A stretch of DNA of 64,000 nt, taken from the NCBI RefSeq assembly GCF_006442545.2, contig NZ_CP083952.1, positions 3,759,501-3,823,500 of the forward strand. The letters run 5' to 3'. The DNA is from Mesorhizobium sp. B2-1-8. Lineage in GTDB: Bacteria > Pseudomonadota > Alphaproteobacteria > Rhizobiales > Rhizobiaceae. This document shows positions 22,260 to 59,897 of the stretch, one piece after another. The notes below the pieces were generated by a model. That model did not search any database. It saw only the letters and a program-made list of their open reading frames with translations, and was not told the origin of the DNA. Positions within the stretch are counted from its first letter, which is position 1; each line of letters starts with the position of its first letter. Position numbers and translations under genes: made by a program.

Positions 22260-24319
22260 AGCAGGAGCCGCAGCGCCTCGCCGCGATCCGATTGCAGTTC
22301 GGGGTCGCGCGACAGAATCAGCCTGGCGTCGTCTCGGGCGGCCTCCAGCAGGTCGGCATGTGCCTCGATGCGCGCCACCTGGAAACCAGGCGTGCCGGAC
22401 TGACGGGTACCCAACAACTCGCCTTCGCCGCGCAATTTCAGGTCCTCCTCGGCGATCAGGAAGCCATCCTCTGTGTCACGCATCACCGACAGCCTGCGTT
22501 TGGCGGTTTCGCCAAGCGGGTCCTTGTAGAGCAGCACGCAGGATGACTTGATGTCGCCGCGCCCGACCCGACCGCGCAGCTGGTGCAACTGGGCGAGACC
22601 GAAGCGCTCGGCATGCTCGATGACCATGATCGTGGCGTCGGGCACGTCGACGCCGACTTCGATGACGGTGGTGGCGATCAGGATGCGCGTCTCGCCTTGC
22701 TTGAAGGCGCGCATCGCCTCGTCCTTCTCGGCACCGTTCATGCGGCCGTGGACAAGGCCGATGCGATCGCCGAACAGTGGCTTCAGCGAAGCGAAGCGAT
22801 CCTCGGCCGACATCAGTTTTATCTCCTCGGATTCCTCGACCAGCGGGCAAATCCAGTAGATCTTTTGGCCATCCGCGACGGCATCGAGCATGCGGCCGAC
22901 CAGTTCGTCGAGCCGTTCGAGCGGTAGCGTGACGGTGCGGATCGGCTGGCGGCCGGCCGGCTTTTCCGTCAGCTTCGACACGTCCATGTCGCCGAAGGCG
23001 GTCAGCACCAGCGTGCGCGGGATGGGGGTCGCGGTCATCACCAGCATGTCGGGCGCATCGCCCTTGGCGGTGATGGCGAGCCGCTGATGGACGCCGAAGC
23101 GATGCTGCTCATCGATGACGGCCAGGACCAGGTCGTGGAAGCTGACCGTTTCCTGAAACAGCGCGTGGGTGCCGACGACAATATCGATCTCGCCGCTGGC
23201 AAGACCAGCCAGCGTTTCGGCTCGCTCGCGGCCCTTTTCGCGGCCGGTCAGGATAGAGACGCGCAAGCCGACCTTGGCTGCAAGCGGAGTGATCGTCGCC
23301 AGATGCTGGCGCGCCAGGATTTCGGTCGGCGCCATCAGCGCCGCCTGGCCGCCGGCCTCTACGGCGCGTGCCATTGCAAGCAGCGCCACCACCGTCTTGC
23401 CGGAGCCGACGTCGCCTTGCAGCAGCCGCAGCATGCGCTCGGGGTCAGCGAGATCGGCGTTGATTTCGGCGAGCGCGAATTCCTGCGAGGGAGTGAGCGA
23501 ATAGGGCAGGGCCGTGCGCAGTTTCTCGACGATGCGGCCATCGCCGACGAGAGGGCGGCCTGACAGGCGTCGCACCTTCGCCCGCACCAGCGCCAGCGAG
23601 ACCTGGCCGGCAAGCAATTCATCATAGGCGAGGCGACGCCATGCAGGCCCTTCGACCGCGACATCGATCGGATCGGCGGGATAATGGATGCGGGTCAGCG
23701 CGTCTCCAAAGGATGGAAAGCTCTGACGGCGCATGAAGGCACCATCCTGCCATTCCGGCAGTTCCGGCAGGCGGCCGAGCGCCTGGCCGATCGCACGCCG
23801 CAAAACCTTGCCGGAGAGCCCCGCCGTCAGCGGATAGACCGGCTCGACCAGCGGCAGGTTCTCGGCTTCGCTGGCGAGTGCGATATGGTCGGGATGGACC
23901 ATGGTCGGGCGTCCGTTGAACCATTCCATACGGCCCGACACCACGACATGCTCGCCCACCGGCATTGCTTTTTCGAGATAGGCGGCATGGGCATGGAAGA
24001 AGGTCAGGCCGATTTCGCCGGTATCGTCATGGGCGTATACCCGGTAGGGCACCGACCTGTTGCCGCGCGGCGGCGGCTGGTGGCGGTCTATGCGCAGCTC
24101 GAGCGTCACGATGGCGCCTTCCGCGGCAAGCGCGATGCCAGGCCGGCTGCGGCGGTCGATGACGGTGTGCGGCAGCACGAACAGAAGATCGCCGGCGCGC
24201 GCGGCGCGATCGCCGAGATCGGCCACAACCACCTTTTCGATAAGCACGCCAACTTTCGGCCCGACGCCGGCAAGCGAGGTGATCGGGACAAACAGGGGAT
24301 CGAGGATGGAAGGACGCAT
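22211..24319 (-). CDS. recG: ATP-dependent DNA helicase RecG
   Basis: A 702-residue branched-DNA helicase acting at stalled replication forks. The N-terminal wedge/OB region starts LDPLFVPITSLAGVGPKVG and includes VVVSGRMEWFNGRPTMVHPD. Helicase motifs are Walker A LQGDVGSGKT, motif II VIDEQHRFGV, motif III VMTATPIPRTL, and motif VI QLRGRVGRG. The conserved tail follows (FLIAEEDLKLRGEGELLGTRQSG). The gene is divergent from sdhE with a 92-base gap, and its 3' end overlaps the DUF502 gene by 49 bases. Confidence 0.96.
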   Translation of the reverse strand: MRPSILDPLFVPITSLAGVGPKVGVLIEKVVVADLGDRAARAGDLLFVLPHTVIDRRSRPGIALAAEGAIVTLELRIDRHQPPPRGNRSVPYRVYAHDDTGEIGLTFFHAHAAYLEKAMPVGEHVVVSGRMEWFNGRPTMVHPDHIALASEAENLPLVEPVYPLTAGLSGKVLRRAIGQALGRLPELPEWQDGAFMRRQSFPSFGDALTRIHYPADPIDVAVEGPAWRRLAYDELLAGQVSLALVRAKVRRLSGRPLVGDGRIVEKLRTALPYSLTPSQEFALAEINADLADPERMLRLLQGDVGSGKTVVALLAMARAVEAGGQAALMAPTEILARQHLATITPLAAKVGLRVSILTGREKGRERAETLAGLASGEIDIVVGTHALFQETVSFHDLVLAVIDEQHRFGVHQRLAITAKGDAPDMLVMTATPIPRTLVLTAFGDMDVSKLTEKPAGRQPIRTVTLPLERLDELVGRMLDAVADGQKIYWICPLVEESEEIKLMSAEDRFASLKPLFGDRIGLVHGRMNGAEKDEAMRAFKQGETRILIATTVIEVGVDVPDATIMVIEHAERFGLAQLHQLRGRVGRGDIKSSCVLLYKDPLGETAKRRLSVMRDTEDGFLIAEEDLKLRGEGELLGTRQSGTPGFQVARIEAHADLLEAARDDARLILSRDPELQSDRGEALRLLLYLFGRDEAVRLLRAG

Positions 24320-52657: not shown

Positions 52658-53272
52658 CTACGGACGGTCAAAGACGTCCGGCCGCAGCTTTCCAGTCTTC
52701 ATCAGGTGCTGCAGGGTGTAAGTCACGGACAGCGCATCGTCGAGCGCGTCATGTCCCTGCAATGGCGGGTGTTCGACGCCGTAGTAATCCGCAAGCTTGT
52801 TGCTCGGCGTCCTTGCCAGGTCCTCGATCGGCATGCCGGCCGCGATCAGCAACTTGACCGCGTTGTCGAACCGGTTGGCCGGGATGGAAGGCTCGATGCC
52901 CGCGACATAGCAACTGATGGCGATCATGTTCAATTCGTCCTTGCCCCAGGACCAGAACCGAGCCCCATCGGAAAAACGATCGATGCCGGCAAGAGCTTCT
53001 TCCAGCTCGACGCCCTCGGCCTCGATGACTTCTTCGGTGATTCCGGTCAGCCTGGTGAAGAACGGATCGAGCGCGTATCTCTCGCCAAATCGGTCGATCG
53101 GCCTGATGTAGGCCTTGTGCGTGCCCAGCACGGGGAAGTCGCCTTCGAGGCCGAGCCTTGCCGCGCCGATTTGTGCGATGATCGGATCGGGGTCATGCGC
53201 CGCGCACCAGAATCTGCGTTGTGAGCCCTCGAGGCAGAGAAACTCGCAGTCGAAGATGATTGCCGTCTTCAC
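52658..53272 (-). CDS. DEDD-family 3'-5' exonuclease
   Basis: A 204-residue DnaQ-fold exonuclease. Catalytic residues are visible: IFDCEFL (DxE) at residues 7-13, the D in WSWGKDELN, and the HxxxxD pair in GHDALDDALSV. The family trims RNA or DNA; the substrate is unknown. It is downstream of GPR on the minus strand but separated by a strong terminator. It converges with the lipoprotein gene after a 38-base gap. Confidence 0.82.
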   Translation of the reverse strand: MKTAIIFDCEFLCLEGSQRRFWCAAHDPDPIIAQIGAARLGLEGDFPVLGTHKAYIRPIDRFGERYALDPFFTRLTGITEEVIEAEGVELEEALAGIDRFSDGARFWSWGKDELNMIAISCYVAGIEPSIPANRFDNAVKLLIAAGMPIEDLARTPSNKLADYYGVEHPPLQGHDALDDALSVTYTLQHLMKTGKLRPDVFDRP

Positions 53273-53348
53273 AACTCAGGATCCGGTTCCGGGAAAACGA
53301 GACAAAACCCGGATGCGTCTTCCGGGTGGCGACATCAGCGCCTTCAAG

Positions 53349-53371
53349 AAAAAAGGCGGGAGTCCCCCGCC
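53349..53371 (-). terminator. Rho-independent terminator of the giant GPR gene
   Basis: On the minus strand GGCGGG (from 53371) pairs with CCCGCC (to 53355) across a 5-nt loop, followed by TTTTTT (53354-53349). It begins 25 bases after the GPR stop and separates it from the exonuclease gene. Confidence 0.85.
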
Positions 53372-53396
53372 ATTTTCGTTTTGGCTCGTCGACCGC

Positions 53397-56300
53397 TTAG
53401 TGCAGGCGGCCGCTGGCATGGGCCAGCATGGTGTAGACCTTGCCGGTGTCCGACGTGAGATAGGTCTGCGCCATGATGTTGTCGCGGTCGTTGCGCGAGA
53501 CATCCTTGAGCAGCTTCTCGAAATCGTCGCAATAGCGGTCGACGGCGGCTCGGAATTCGGCCTCCGCCTGGTACTTACGGCGGATTTCGTCGAACGTCTG
53601 CTGGCCCTTCAGCGTGTAGAGCCTGCGTGTGAACACGTCACGCTCGCCACGCCGGTAGCGGTTCCACAGCTCGATCGAGGCATCGTGATCGATCGCCCGT
53701 GCGATATCGACGGACAGCGAGTTCAGCGATTCCACGACATGCAGCGGCGAACGCTGGGCAGGGGTCGGGCGCGGGGCTTCGGCAGGCGCCTGGGGGGCCG
53801 CCGGCTGGAGGTCGGCATCGTTCGACGCGGCGGTCAGCAGATCACGCACCCAGCCGCCTTGCGGCGCGCGGGCAGTGGTGTCGGCGGCACGCTGGCGCGG
53901 TGCCGCCTCCGCCGGACGCTCCAGATCGAGCGTGCCACGCAGTCCCGCGCCGCCCAGCGGTGCCTGCGGCGGGCGCAAATCCGCCTGCGGCGGTGCCGGG
54001 GCGCGACGGGGCGGCTCGGCGGCCCGTGCGGCCGGTGCCTGCGGGGCCGGGCGCAAGGGGCGCGGTTCCGAGGAGTCGCCGCCACGACCGGATTTCGCAA
54101 CGATATCCGAAAGCTCCTTCAAGGCGTTTATCTGCTCGGAAACGGCGCGGCGGATGGCCGAGGTCGATTCCTTGGCCTCTTCCGGCATCTCGATGACGCC
54201 TTTCTTGAGTTCGGCCCGGGTGAGGTCGAGTTCGCTCTTGATCGAGCCCGCTGTGCGCCGCATTTCCTCGGTCGCATCGGCGAAGCGCTTGGTTGCCGAC
54301 TCGACGACATCGGTGATGGCGTTGCGGATCTTGTCGGCAGATTCCAGCGTCTTGCCTTCGGCGTTCTGCAGCGTCTGGCCGACGAGGTTTTCGAAAGAAC
54401 GCATGACCCTCTCGAGATCTTCCGACTTCTTGACCAGGCCAACGGCGAGATCCTCGAGCGACGACTGTCTTTCCAGCGTGTGTTCGAGGTTGCTCTGGGC
54501 CGAGCTCAGGAGGTCGGAAGCGCCGGCGAGCAGGCGGCTGTGTTCGTCGAACTTGGTGGCGATCGAGGCGACTTCACGCAAGGTCGACGACGACAGTTCC
54601 GTCAGCCTTGTCGTGTTCGAATCGACCAGACGAGCCGAGCTGGCAAAGGTCTGCGCCGCCTTTTCGGTGGTCGCCGCGAAGCTTTGCGTGCTGCCGGTCA
54701 GGCGTTGGTCGACCTCGCCGAGGTTGACCGCGGCCTGCTCGATCAGCTGACCGAGCTGCGAACTGGACTTGGTCATACGGCCGATGAGATCGGCGACGCT
54801 GTCGGACAGCGACGAACGGGCGCCTTCGACCGCCGACAGGGTTTCGGCGGTACGGTTGGCGAGCGCGTTGACCAGGGTCGCATTCTCGCTGCGCAGCTTC
54901 TCGGTCGCGCGTTCGGTGACCTCTTCCATGCTCTTTTGCAGTTCCGAGCCGCCCTGGGCGAAGCGCTCGACCAAAGGCCGCGCGGTTTCGTCGAGGATCT
55001 TCGACATCTCGGCGGACCGCGCCGCGAGCATGGTGTTGAGCTCGCGGGTGTTGGCGCCGATCGTCTTGGCGGCGTCGTTGGTGCTCTGGCCGATATGCTG
55101 GCCGACCGCGGTGAAGGTCTCCGCGATCACGTTGGCACGCGATACGAGTTGCGCCTCGGCGGTCGATACCTGCTCGTTGAGCTTCTGGCCCATCGTCTCG
55201 GCAGTGTAGGCAAGCCGGTTTTCGACACCGGCGATCTGCTCTTCGACCCGGGCGGCCGCAGCCGCCGCGCTCGACGCGAGACGCTCGTCGGCGCCGGCAA
55301 GCGCCTGCTCGATTTCGCGGGCATGCACGGCCAGTTCCTGGCCGGTCTGGCGCGCGCGATCGGCGACCCTCTGTTCGGTGCTTGCGAAGGCGCCGACAAT
55401 GGTCTGCGCATGCTCGCCGATCGTCGAGGTGCTGTCGGCGATGCGCGAAACCAGGCGCTGGTCGGCGTCGTCGAAGATGCGGGCGATTTCGGATGCCCGG
55501 CTGGACAGCGCGTCCGAGCCTTCGGCGATGCGCGAGACCAAGTGCTGGTCGGCGGCATCGAAGATGCGGCCGAGATCCGACGCGCGGGCGGCGAGCGCCT
55601 CGGCGGATTCGCCGATGCGCATGCCGAGCCGCTGGTCGGCGCTTTCGAAGTTGCGCAGGATGTCGCCGGCGCGGGCGGCCAGCGACTGCGCCGTCTCCAC
55701 GGCCCGGGCGACGAGCTTCTGGTCGGCCGCGTCGAACGTGCCGGCAATCTCGCTAGCGCGGGCGGCAAGCTGATCGGCGGCCTCCTGAGCCCGAGCGGCC
55801 AGTTGATCAGTGGTTGCTTGTGTGCGGGCGGCCAGCTTCTGGTCGGCCATATCGAAGGCGCCGGCGATCTCGCCAGCGCGAGCGGCGAGCTGATCGGCGG
55901 TTTCATGGGCGCGGGCCAGCAACGAGCTGGAGGTGTCGTCGGCGTGGGCGAGCAAGGCGTTCGTCGTATCTTCCGCACGGGCGTGGAGGCGACGATCGGC
56001 CTCCTCGAAAGTGCGGGCAATGTCTTCGGCCCGTGCCAGCAGGGCAGCGGACGTCTGTTCTGCGCGCTCGGCGATCTTGCGATCGGCGTCGCTGAAGGCC
56101 GCCCCCGCCTGTTCGTGCAGCGTGCTGGTGACTTCCAGCACCTTTTCGCGCAAGGCGCCGGCGACGAAGACCGCGCTCTTCTCGAGCACGCTGCGAACGT
56201 TGTCGACACCGGTCGACAGCGCGCGCTCCATGGTGCCGGCGCGTTCCTCGATGATGCCGGTCTGGCGGCTGAACGCCTGCTCGATCTTGTCGACATCGGC

Positions 56301-59300
56301 AGCGATCGCGGCGGAAATGTCCGTGCTCCTGGCGGCGATCTGGTCGATGTGGCCCGACAGCGAGCGATCGACGTCCTTGCGGGTCTCGGCGAGCTTGCCG
56401 AGATCGTCTTCCAGCGCGCGGCTGAGCATATTGCGGCCTTCGGACAACTTGCCGACATGTCCGGCGATGATGTCGTCGATATCGCCGCGGCTTTCGGTCA
56501 GCTTCTGCAGGTCGGCTTCGAGAGCGCGCTTGAGAATGTCGCGGCCTTCGGCCAGCTTCTCGACCTGGCCGGCGACCAGACCGTCGATGCTGGAGCGGCT
56601 TTCGGCCAGCTTGGCAAGATCGGCCTCCAGCGCCCGCTTGAGGACATCGCGGCCTTCGGCCAGCTTCTCGACCTGACCGGCGACCAGACCGTCGATGCTG
56701 GAGCGGCTTTCGGCCAGCTTGGCAAGATCGGCCTCCAGCGCCCGCTTGAGGACATCGCGGCCTTCGGCCAGCTTCTCGACCTGACCGGCGACCAGACCGT
56801 CGATGCTGGAACGGCTCTCGGCCAGCTTGGCAAGGTCGTCCTCAAGGGCCTTCGACAAGGTCGAACGCTCCTGGACAAGCCGTTCCGCATGGTTGTTGAC
56901 GTGTCCGCTAACGGTCAGCAGGTCGGCCTCGAGAGCTCTCGACAAGGTCGAACGCTCCTGGGCAAGCCGCTCGGTGTGGCTGTCGACGTGGTTGCCGACA
57001 GCTTCGAGGTCGGCTTCCAGCGCTTTCGATAGTGTCGAACGCTCCTGGACAAGCCGGTCCGAGTGGCTGTTGACAAGGCTGTTGACGGTTTCGAGATCGG
57101 CCTCCAGCGCACGGGCGAACTGGGTGCGGTCGTCGACCAGTTTCTGGGACTGATCGGCAACGGTGTTTCTGACCGTGTTGAGGTCGGCTTCCAATGCGCG
57201 GCGCAGGATGTCGCGACCTTCGGCGAGTTTCTCCACCTGGCCGGCGACCAGCCCGTCGATGCTGGAGCGGCTTTCGGCCAGCTTGGCGAGATCGTCCTCC
57301 AGCGCTTTCGACAGGGTCGAGCGATCCTGAACCAGCCTGTTCATGTGGTCGGCGATGACGCTGTTCACATTCTGCAGATCGGCTTCCAGAACGCGCGAGA
57401 GCTGTCCGCGATCCTCCGCCAGTTTGTCCGACTGGCTCGATATGACGTTCTTGATTGTGTTGAGATCGGATTCCAGGGCGCGCTTGAGAATGTCGCGGCC
57501 CTCGGCCAGTTTCTCGACCTGGCCGGCGACCAGACCGTCGATGCTGGAGCGGCTTTCGGCCAGCTTGGTGAGGTCGGCTTCAAGCGTCTGCGACAGCAGG
57601 CTACGGTCTTCCGCCAGGCGCCCGGAATGGCTGTCGATCAGGCCACGTATGCCCGACAGGTCGCTTTCAAGCGAACGGCCTAGCTGCGTGCGGTCTTCGG
57701 CCAGCTTTGCCGAATGCGCCTCGATGAGGTTCTTGATACCGGCAATGTCGTTTTCCAGCGCCTTGGCGAGCACCGCGCGGCCCTCGGCGATCTTCTCGAC
57801 CTGGCCGGCGACGAGGCCGTCTATGTCGGCGCGGCTGTCGGACAGTTTGCCGAGATCAGCTTCCAGCGCACGCGACAGGATGTTGCGGCCTTCTGCCAAT
57901 TTTCCGACATGTCCGGCGACCATTTCATCAATGATCGTACGAGCTTGCACCAGTTTACCAGAGTCTTCGTTGAGAGCCAGAGAGAGCCGGTTGCGGCCTT
58001 CCTCCAATCGTTCGAGATGGCTGCCGAGCGACGCATCGATGGCGGCGCGCGATTCGTTGACCTTGCGCAGATCTTCTTCGAGCGCACGCGCTATCAGGCT
58101 GCGGCCTTCGGCCAGCTTCTGCACCTGATTGGTCACGGCGGCATCGATGCCGGCGCGGCCCTCGGCGAATTTCTCCAGGTCCGCCTCCATGGCGGCAGCC
58201 ATGCGCTCGCGGCTCTCGGAGAGCTTGCGGCTGTGGTTTTCGACGGCTTCCTCGATGCCGACGCGGGCATCGGCAAGCCTCTGGATATCGGCGTCGAAGG
58301 AACGCGACACGACGTGGCGGGCTGCCTCCATGCGGCCGGCGAAATCGCTGGCGCGCGCTTCGAGCATGGATGAGGTCGAGGTGACGATGTCGGCCATGTC
58401 GGTGCCGATCTGGGTCTTGCCCTGATCGATCATGGCCGACAACGTGTCCTTGCTCTCGGCGAAGGTGTGGGCGATTTCACGCGCACGCTCGACCAGCGTT
58501 TCGTTGATCTGGCGGGCACGGGCCTCAAGCGCGGCATTGAGCTTCTGCGTGCCGGTATCCAGCGCTTCCGCGCGGGTCTGGAACTCGCTGATCAGCGCCT
58601 GGCCGCGTTCGGCCAAGGTACGCTCGATGCCGTCGAGGCTAGCCTCGAACTCGGAATTGAGGGTGCGCGCGGCGCCGCCGAGCAGCGACACCATGCCGGT
58701 GGTGCGGTCGTCGAGCAGGTCGGTCAACGAGCGGGTCAAGCCGTCCGTGGTGTCCGTCAGCTTGGCGATACGGGTGTCGAGCAGGCTGGCGAAAGCCTCG
58801 CCGGAGGTCGAAAGCCGGTCGGTGATGTTGTCGAGGCGGCCCTCCACCGAGTCGAAGATCGACAGCGAGCTTTCGTTGATGCGGTCGATCAGCGTGTCGC
58901 CGGAATTGGTGATCGTCATCGACAGTTTGGTCGACGCATTGAGGATGCTGTCGCGGATGATGTCGCTTGCCGCGCCGATTTCATCGCGCAACGTCTCGTG
59001 CGCGCCGGAGATCGAGGCGCGGACGCGTTCGGCATGGGTGACCACCGCTTCGCGTTCGCTGCCCAGTCCGTCGACCAGCGACCTGATCCGGGTTTCGTTT
59101 TCCGAATAGGAGCGCTCGATCTGGTTGACCTCGCTGTGAACCAGCGTTTCCAGTTCCACGGCACGGGCAAGGGTGCGTTCGATGCCTTCACCCATGGCGG
59201 CCACCTCGCGGCGGACGGCCTGGCCGATCATCATGACGCGATCCTGAGCCATGTTTTCCGGCTCGGTCAGGCGGAAGGCCACTTCCGTCATCGATTGCGC

Positions 59301-59897
59301 GGCGATGCGCATGTCCTGGGCGCGGCGAATCATCGCCGCGAAGGCCCAGAACAGGATGACGGGCACGATTGCCGCGACGGCCAGGCCGATCAGTTCGGGG
59401 CGGGCAAAGAACTGGTCCAGCGTGCCTATCCGCCAGATGCTCGGTCCAAAAAGCAGGTTGGCCAGTCCGCCGGCGCCGGCGATCCAGGCGAGCGAGACAA
59501 AGGCGATGACCCAGTAGATGGTGTTGGAGGCGCGCCTGTTCAGGCTGTGCAGAAGGGTCTTGTAATCTTTCTGGCGATCGTCGTTGGCTGGCGCGAAGCC
59601 GGCGGGCTGGCCACCATTGCGCGTCTCTACCGGGCGAAGTTCGGCCGGCTTGGCCTTTGGCGCGGGCTTCTCGGCCTGAGCCTGATTGACGACGGGCGCC
59701 GCCGGCTGCTGATTGCGTCCCTCGCGTGCCAGCTCGTCGGCGGCCTGCGATATCTGCGCTTCCAGATCTTCCATCGAAGCCGCGATATCGAGGTCGCCAC
59801 TGTCGGTATCGCCGCTCAGGTCGAGATCGAGCGCTTTTTCGAGTTCCCTGGCTACGTCGCTGTCGAGATTTCTGGTCGTATTTGGTTTCTTCGCCAT
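53397..59897 (-). CDS. Giant coiled-coil membrane protein, GPR (growth pole ring) homologue
   Basis: A 2166-residue protein. Order: a disordered acidic N-terminus (1-120); two membrane helices near 125-150 and 168-190; about 1700 residues of helix; a Pro/Ala-rich linker near 1940-2040; and a conserved C-terminal domain of roughly 130 residues ending TMLAHASGRLH. Size and layout match the GPR protein of Agrobacterium tumefaciens (about 2100 residues), which forms a ring at the growing pole and is needed for polar growth and rod shape; older annotations say apolipoprotein-like or kinesin-like. The central repeats are described separately. Identity as GPR is inferred from size, order and repeat style. 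Confidence 0.8.
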   Translation of the reverse strand: MAKKPNTTRNLDSDVARELEKALDLDLSGDTDSGDLDIAASMEDLEAQISQAADELAREGRNQQPAAPVVNQAQAEKPAPKAKPAELRPVETRNGGQPAGFAPANDDRQKDYKTLLHSLNRRASNTIYWVIAFVSLAWIAGAGGLANLLFGPSIWRIGTLDQFFARPELIGLAVAAIVPVILFWAFAAMIRRAQDMRIAAQSMTEVAFRLTEPENMAQDRVMMIGQAVRREVAAMGEGIERTLARAVELETLVHSEVNQIERSYSENETRIRSLVDGLGSEREAVVTHAERVRASISGAHETLRDEIGAASDIIRDSILNASTKLSMTITNSGDTLIDRINESSLSIFDSVEGRLDNITDRLSTSGEAFASLLDTRIAKLTDTTDGLTRSLTDLLDDRTTGMVSLLGGAARTLNSEFEASLDGIERTLAERGQALISEFQTRAEALDTGTQKLNAALEARARQINETLVERAREIAHTFAESKDTLSAMIDQGKTQIGTDMADIVTSTSSMLEARASDFAGRMEAARHVVSRSFDADIQRLADARVGIEEAVENHSRKLSESRERMAAAMEADLEKFAEGRAGIDAAVTNQVQKLAEGRSLIARALEEDLRKVNESRAAIDASLGSHLERLEEGRNRLSLALNEDSGKLVQARTIIDEMVAGHVGKLAEGRNILSRALEADLGKLSDSRADIDGLVAGQVEKIAEGRAVLAKALENDIAGIKNLIEAHSAKLAEDRTQLGRSLESDLSGIRGLIDSHSGRLAEDRSLLSQTLEADLTKLAESRSSIDGLVAGQVEKLAEGRDILKRALESDLNTIKNVISSQSDKLAEDRGQLSRVLEADLQNVNSVIADHMNRLVQDRSTLSKALEDDLAKLAESRSSIDGLVAGQVEKLAEGRDILRRALEADLNTVRNTVADQSQKLVDDRTQFARALEADLETVNSLVNSHSDRLVQERSTLSKALEADLEAVGNHVDSHTERLAQERSTLSRALEADLLTVSGHVNNHAERLVQERSTLSKALEDDLAKLAESRSSIDGLVAGQVEKLAEGRDVLKRALEADLAKLAESRSSIDGLVAGQVEKLAEGRDVLKRALEADLAKLAESRSSIDGLVAGQVEKLAEGRDILKRALEADLQKLTESRGDIDDIIAGHVGKLSEGRNMLSRALEDDLGKLAETRKDVDRSLSGHIDQIAARSTDISAAIAADVDKIEQAFSRQTGIIEERAGTMERALSTGVDNVRSVLEKSAVFVAGALREKVLEVTSTLHEQAGAAFSDADRKIAERAEQTSAALLARAEDIARTFEEADRRLHARAEDTTNALLAHADDTSSSLLARAHETADQLAARAGEIAGAFDMADQKLAARTQATTDQLAARAQEAADQLAARASEIAGTFDAADQKLVARAVETAQSLAARAGDILRNFESADQRLGMRIGESAEALAARASDLGRIFDAADQHLVSRIAEGSDALSSRASEIARIFDDADQRLVSRIADSTSTIGEHAQTIVGAFASTEQRVADRARQTGQELAVHAREIEQALAGADERLASSAAAAAARVEEQIAGVENRLAYTAETMGQKLNEQVSTAEAQLVSRANVIAETFTAVGQHIGQSTNDAAKTIGANTRELNTMLAARSAEMSKILDETARPLVERFAQGGSELQKSMEEVTERATEKLRSENATLVNALANRTAETLSAVEGARSSLSDSVADLIGRMTKSSSQLGQLIEQAAVNLGEVDQRLTGSTQSFAATTEKAAQTFASSARLVDSNTTRLTELSSSTLREVASIATKFDEHSRLLAGASDLLSSAQSNLEHTLERQSSLEDLAVGLVKKSEDLERVMRSFENLVGQTLQNAEGKTLESADKIRNAITDVVESATKRFADATEEMRRTAGSIKSELDLTRAELKKGVIEMPEEAKESTSAIRRAVSEQINALKELSDIVAKSGRGGDSSEPRPLRPAPQAPAARAAEPPRRAPAPPQADLRPPQAPLGGAGLRGTLDLERPAEAAPRQRAADTTARAPQGGWVRDLLTAASNDADLQPAAPQAPAEAPRPTPAQRSPLHVVESLNSLSVDIARAIDHDASIELWNRYRRGERDVFTRRLYTLKGQQTFDEIRRKYQAEAEFRAAVDRYCDDFEKLLKDVSRNDRDNIMAQTYLTSDTGKVYTMLAHASGRLH
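56298..58289 (-). repeat. Quantized 36/29-residue repeat array inside GPR (residues 537-1200)
   Basis: The array resolves by eye into 20 units with no leftover residues: twelve of 36 and eight of 29 (664 residues, equal to 1992 bases). The 36-residue type reads DLAKLAESRSSIDGLVAGQV, then EKLAEGRDVLKRALEA. The 29-residue type reads like DLETVNSLVNSHSDRLVQER, then STLSKALEA. The order from the N-terminal side is 36 x5, 29 x2, 36, 29 x2, 36, 29 x4, 36 x5. The two lengths differ by exactly one heptad. A 29-residue period continues downstream in other sequence. Confidence 0.85.
56533..56856. repeat. 108-bp near-identical tandem repeat within GPR
   Basis: Three successive 108-bp units (56533-56640, 56641-56748, 56749-56856) correspond to three 36-residue protein units. 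The stretch 56569-56702 recurs without a mismatch at 56677-56810 (134 bases at an offset of 108). This is much higher identity than elsewhere in the array, pointing to a recent duplication or ongoing conversion. Confidence 0.9.

Follow-up and report, generated by a model that had tools for sequence, protein, structure and literature searches.

Which lengths may a very long protein helix gain or lose as it evolves? The question is raised by a gene in a 64,000-nucleotide stretch of DNA from Mesorhizobium sp. B2-1-8 (NCBI RefSeq assembly GCF_006442545.2, contig NZ_CP083952.1, positions 3,759,501 to 3,823,500; the window). This gene codes for a giant, predicted helical protein resembling GPR of Agrobacterium (Atu1348, 2115 amino acids) and RgsE of Sinorhizobium (SMc00190, 2089 amino acids), as described in the consulted parts of PMC8262873 and PMC7327166. 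An earlier note on this DNA proposed that the helix is built from units of 36 and 29 residues, that it grows or shrinks by whole units, and that it sets the length of a ring-forming molecular ruler. We find that the helix changes in length by whole helical turns, such that the phase of its hydrophobic stripe is conserved and its overall length is free to vary. Such a combination is evidence for growth in constant register and against a fixed ruler.

Units of 36 and 29 residues

Residues 537-1200 (from position 58289, where residue 537 begins, down to 56298, the end of residue 1200) divide exactly into twelve 36-residue and eight 29-residue units, as the earlier note had claimed: 12 x 36 plus 8 x 29 equals 664 residues, with a remainder of zero. 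When each unit is counted as starting after the sequence LE.D (the junction phase), the 36-residue units begin at residues 538, 574, 610, 646, 682, 776, 870, 1022, 1058, 1094, 1130 and 1166, and the 29-residue units at residues 718, 747, 812, 841, 906, 935, 964 and 993. The first and last units are the weaker matches as judged by eye. What sets the two types apart is a block of 7 residues within the first third of the unit, its exact place being ambiguous, and the reading of both lengths as combinations of 11 and 7 residues lying one heptad apart is supported. Three successive units within the array are nearly identical and represent a recent tandem amplification. Farther along the chain, the later 29-residue period described before is also real. 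Its three recognized units (LVARAVETAQ at residue 1395, LGMRIGESAE at 1424 and LVSRIAEGSD at 1453) are joined by a fourth (LVSRIADSTS at 1482), with spacings of 29, 29 and 29, and the two spacings preceding them are 51 and 40.

The array was traced in 81 sequences, namely the window and the best 80 of 168 confirmed Mesorhizobium and Aminobacter relatives. The junction profile was trained on the 18 junctions of the window, and a 15-residue minimum was its sole spacing constraint. Among 1327 junction spacings, 1310 are either 36 (720 cases) or 29 (590 cases). Another 16 are 58, which we read as two 29-residue units with a weak junction between them, and the lone spacing of 34 belongs to a locus containing Ns (L070). 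For counts of insertions and deletions (indels) and for tree building, five loci with Ns or truncations (L054, L070, L072, L075 and L077) were dropped and 75 of the 80 were kept.

The 76 usable sequences carry 30 distinct unit strings. Most scanned sequences share the order at the start of the array (36 36 36 29 29 36 29 29 ..., window residues 574-910), and it is in the C-terminal half that the number of units differs. The shortest array in the sample has 455 residues and the longest 867. Because arrays of 491, 462, 455 and 549 residues are present in four loci from records titled complete, this variation is not solely an artefact of draft assembly. Some contigs (L008, L010, L024, L033, L040, L043 and L064, together with G067, G008, G049 and G080 from the family search described below) stop within or close to the Pro/Ala-rich linker or C-terminal domain, not in the array, and those of L072 and L077 stop earlier, past the array.

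On a tree of the 76 sequences, built from mostly non-repeated parts, there are 39 changes of array length. Of these, 36 are whole-unit sums in one most-parsimonious reconstruction, with steps of 29, 36, 65, 72, 94, 101, 159 or 188 residues. The junction spacings, these tree changes and a hydrophobic stripe that does not drift all support the earlier idea of growth and shrinkage by whole units in constant helical register.

Helical register across the family

A length is defined here as being in register if it can be divided into a whole number of turns of 3.600-3.667 residues each (from 18/5 to 11/3), a condition that 16 of the 59 integers in the range 8-66 satisfy. The family set consists of 94 loci, about one per genus, from the 99 genomes with a match to the C-terminal domain. 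One locus comes from the window's own genus. Four genomes whose match lies at a contig end (G067, G008, G049 and G080) and the window itself (G000) were left out, and some of the 94 loci are cut by contig ends. The nearest self-match offset of 8-66 residues is in register at 24144 of 24253 positions, as are 246 of the 249 genus-offset classes, and in many genera the repeats are purely multiples of 11. One shuffle per sequence that preserves the hydrophobic pattern yields only 18 self-match hits in total over the 94 loci.

Recent DNA duplications, defined by 88% or more identity over 75 bases, provide 50 gene-offset records. All are in frame and 49 are in register; the single exception, an offset of 68 residues in L112, lies across a stretch of Ns, and the remaining 49 records were not screened singly for Ns. 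Every one of the 34 records of up to 66 residues is in register, against a local null of 0.24 each, with inheritance making these records not fully independent.

Indels follow the same pattern. In the 75 Mesorhizobium and Aminobacter orthologues, residues 110-609 are free of indels and residues 1166-1936 carry twelve gap classes, all in register, and the N-terminus and linker have many indels of 1-10 residues. Five genera were searched for extra members and three were analysed; the genera of G100 and G080 comprise one and four genomes. Helix gap classes are in register in 6 of 6 cases in genus g72 (16 of 16 genomes used), 18 of 19 in g46 (31 of 33 genomes) and 14 of 14 in g84 (nine genomes, eight read and four usable, the others being without the anchor motif). 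Across the four genus-level sets, indel classes of 8-66 residues are in register in 30 of 30 cases in the helix versus 10 of 55 in the flanks (Fisher p 1e-14, for classes that are not fully independent). With classes of 1-66 residues the corresponding counts are 30 of 31 and 10 of 223.

The earlier note had expected orthologue lengths to differ by multiples of 29, 36 or 7 residues. This expectation is borne out in the array, where 36 of the 39 tree changes are whole-unit sums, but it fails elsewhere and in other genera, where helix indels of 11, 18, 22, 33, 40, 44 and 51 residues also occur. Since none of the helix indel classes of up to 66 residues in the four sets is a multiple of 7, we reject that wording, and the rule is instead one of whole helical turns.

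The stripe itself has a hydrophobic period of 3.6225 for the helix as a whole; within the array the value is 3.615, nearer 3.61 than 3.667. Power over the helix is 19.2 at the hydrophobic peak versus 1.1 at 3.5, and the peak in the 94 family loci lies at 3.61-3.665 (median 3.6525). Within an arc of 120 degrees L/I/V/M/F residues make up a share of 0.46-0.75, outside it no more than 0.19, and overall 26%, so that the stripe they form is narrow. All 20 array units have a hydrophobic phase between -22 and -69 degrees, and therefore the stripe runs without rotation across 664 residues. A canonical heptad coiled coil with a period of 3.5 was rejected as a description, with power in the tested parts of 0.1-2.7 at 3.5 versus 12-50 at 3.615-3.65.

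An AlphaFold model of a 374-residue part of the protein places residues 2-104 and 112-373 of that part in helices, which span junctions between 36- and 29-residue units. The predicted break, at residues 642-648 of the window protein (about positions 57954-57974), falls at the sole array unit that begins with S (SGKL) and might be a hinge.

Protein layout and family membership

Table 1. Features of the gene and its protein, with positions numbered from the first nucleotide of the window.
Feature	Residues	Position	Strand	Basis or remark
GPR/RgsE-like giant helical, membrane-anchored protein (putative), 2166 aa	1-2166	53397..59897	minus	ORF; PF01442 match; C-terminal domain family-wide
N-terminal segment, taken as disordered	1-110	59568..59897	minus	many indels of arbitrary length; internal control
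Two hydrophobic segments, probably transmembrane	~127-190	59328..59519	minus	hydropathy peaks near 127-145 and 163-192
Pre-array helix (predicted)	214-537	58287..59258	minus	
Array, twelve 36-aa and eight 29-aa units (junction phase)	538-1201	56295..58286	minus	
Three successive near-identical 36-aa units	1022-1129	56511..56834	minus	pairwise 106, 97 and 99 of 108 bases shared
Post-array helix (predicted)	1202-1935	54093..56294	minus	all indel classes found in helical register
Second 29-aa period, different sequence, four units	1395-1510	55368..55715	minus	
Pro/Ala-rich linker	1937-2045	53763..54089	minus	indel lengths arbitrary; internal control
Conserved C-terminal domain	2040-2166	53400..53780	minus	

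The traits on which GPR and RgsE are described are found here: a size of about 2000 residues, N-terminal membrane segments and a long helix. The helix is predicted over the modelled 374-residue part with one break, and its remainder, to a total of about 1700 residues, is judged from the sequence period and the scarcity of proline (only 2 prolines in residues 214-1935). The protein also matches the Apolipoprotein family PF01442 (E 3.9e-21, 76.1 bits), under the Pfam gathering score of 90. A search with the 127-residue C-terminal stretch gave a single match per genome in 99 of the 101 family genomes and none in the other two. We strongly infer from these traits that the protein represents the GPR/RgsE family of polar-growth scaffolds in Mesorhizobium, which agrees with the identity proposed before. 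The likeness is to the described traits. The matches listed in our protein searches, most of which are without names, include no named Agrobacterium or Sinorhizobium GPR. NCBIfam at E 0.001 gave no match to the protein, and both a sequence search of solved structures at E 0.01 and a fold search were empty.

Three loci from genomes of 1.2-1.5 Mb (L171, L177 and L178) encode a shorter protein of 1338-1525 amino acids in which internal repeats are undetectable, and thus persistence of the gene does not need the repeats. A 1305-residue open frame on the plus strand (53115-57032) overlies the repeats of the window gene in antisense and is probably not a gene but a side effect of coding sequence that is repetitive and GC-rich.

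Stripe phase, free length and their explanation

Together these data lead us to a model that we consider probable, in which the protein is a polar-growth scaffold with an in-phase hydrophobic stripe, its length grown in whole-turn quanta and its chains packed in register as bundles. The two N-terminal hydrophobic segments would hold the protein at the inner membrane, and along the predicted helix of about 1700 residues runs a single narrow hydrophobic stripe, whose period (~3.61-3.65) is close to the value for an undistorted alpha-helix. Tandem duplication and loss would supply new length, and selection would hold the phase of the stripe and leave length unconstrained, such that copies would be retained only at whole-turn lengths (11a+7b with few sevens: 22, 29, 33, 36, 40, 62). 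The quanta of the Mesorhizobium lineage are 36 residues (10 turns) and 29 residues (8 turns), which recombination would then copy and remove whole. Most likely, identical chains would lie side by side, in register, as long and nearly straight bundles joined along the one stripe. An out-of-phase insertion would disrupt packing beyond the insertion itself, whereas an in-phase unit would merely lengthen the rod. Purifying selection on stripe phase is the simplest account of the data. The quanta, the phase rule and the variation in length are seen directly in the sequences, and selection as their cause, assembly into bundles and a role at the pole are inferred from them. Our belief is evenly balanced on a more specific proposition, that the target of selection is the angular phase of a single stripe, held at 3.60-3.667 residues per turn over about 1700 residues, and that length stays evolvable in whole-turn quanta chosen by each lineage, which would make GPR a phase-locked, length-free scaffold.

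Several points weigh against this model. The range of 3.60-3.667, whose ends are 18/5 and 11/3, was set after inspection of the data and hardly restricts lengths greater than about 66 residues. Three of the 249 genus-offset classes (35, 43 and 48) are out of register; the clearest exceptions are the 43-residue repeats of L144 (residues ~613-745) and the 48-residue repeats of L170 (~2110-2200). All 18 shuffle hits are in register as well, and therefore the hydrophobic pattern alone biases toward register, though such hits are too few to make the signal. Three of the 39 tree changes are a net 7 residues, and the largest tree steps are weak evidence as whole-unit sums. One 3-residue helix gap class in g46 is out of register; it adjoins a gap of 95 or 106 residues, and the sums, 98 or 109, are in register. 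Confidence in the AlphaFold model is modest (pLDDT 77, pTM 0.25), with the helix broken near residues 642-648. Published coiled-coil deletions of 20-21 residues, which are out of phase, still gave paired foci when expressed alone, and in an interference assay beside the wild type they caused severe defects (both in the consulted parts of PMC8262873).

A further difficulty is that recombination between existing repeats yields whole-unit changes without any selection on phase. The quanta could be products of unequal recombination alone, with other indels lost by breaking the coiled coil. Array units sharing up to 106 of 108 bases are suited to this process, indels are scarce in other coiled coils such as synaptonemal complex proteins (according to the consulted parts of PMC8598163), and an ancestral 11-residue repeat could contribute to the whole-turn limit. 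By itself, however, recombination leaves unexplained why repeats that differ in length across many genera nearly all keep to this limit, to which only 16 of the 59 integers in the range 8-66 conform. We judge a history free of phase selection to be unlikely. Somewhat less doubtful, though still improbable, is that the phase rule maintains a continuous nonpolar face on membrane or lipid, with no bundling of helices. The PF01442-type match, the pure 11-multiples of many genera and the precedent of perilipin 4, whose 29 tandem 33-mers have no indels between them and are readable as a 3-11 helix (PMC5889406, consulted parts), are all compatible with a lipid-coating giant amphipathic helix. However, perilipin 4 is reported to be weakly hydrophobic (PMC5889406 and PMC8064757, consulted parts) in comparison with the 26% of L/I/V/M/F here, and the Mesorhizobium array period is closer to 3.61 than to 3.667. 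The narrowness of the Leu/Ile stripe appears to favour helix-helix packing over lying on lipid.

The ruler of the earlier note, in which unit number would set ring diameter or reach as tuned by each species to its cell size, fares worst and seems to us very unlikely. Whole-unit length changes would suit it, as would the ring of about 200 nm attributed to Agrobacterium GPR in the consulted parts of PMC8262873. However, related species have arrays of anything from 455 to 867 residues, and from genus to genus the open frames vary in length by a factor of more than two. SMC, a comparison long rod, has 1152 or 1153 residues in all 30 loci read from the same genus (41 genomes searched), with two gaps of one residue each at alignment columns 506 and 588, which we take as the hinge. 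Thus, of the first interpretation, register-keeping growth by whole units is supported and a ruler that fixes ring size is not.

The preferred model of a phase-conserved stripe on a rod of free length can be set beside known systems, each compared through the consulted parts of the cited sources. The protein is like GPR and RgsE in size (2166 residues here), N-terminal membrane segments, long helix and family-wide conservation, and its apolipoprotein-type match, though under the gathering score, recalls theirs, but the 36/29 quanta and the phase rule are absent from those parts of PMC8262873 and PMC7327166, and the word 'repeat' is absent from the main text of PMC8262873. Like perilipin 4, it has a very long amphipathic helix made of tandem repeats, indel-free between repeats (PMC5889406), but in place of the single 33-residue unit its array has two quanta, together with a Leu/Ile stripe and a period of ~3.61. 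Hendecad and mixed-period coiled coils offer a closer geometry, as 11/3 = 3.67 is near a straight helix (PMC4786415). Coiled coils accommodate insertions of 3 or 4 residues (PMC4786415), whereas the aligned helix parts here have none except the one ambiguous 3-residue gap class. Small indels are also rare in the helical rods of SMC and of synaptonemal complex coiled coils (the latter in PMC8598163), but in those data length is conserved, and here length varies and phase is conserved. Among the matches listed in a mostly non-subscription literature, titles and the openings of abstracts do not name such a phase rule.

If the phase-locked, length-free reading is true, GPR would function as a single unbroken bundle, nearly straight and in register, and would represent a distinct mode of rod evolution, the opposite of length-locked rods such as SMC. 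The presence of the phase rule in many genera constrains the structure of the GPR ring, which calls for a continuous stripe and near-straight geometry and makes a fixed length unnecessary. The rule also predicts which helix deletions the protein should tolerate. It offers one reading of the severe defects reported for the 20-21-residue deletions (consulted parts of PMC8262873), whose lengths are out of phase, despite the paired foci seen when these variants are alone. Finally, natural length variants are available for relating ring size to helix length.

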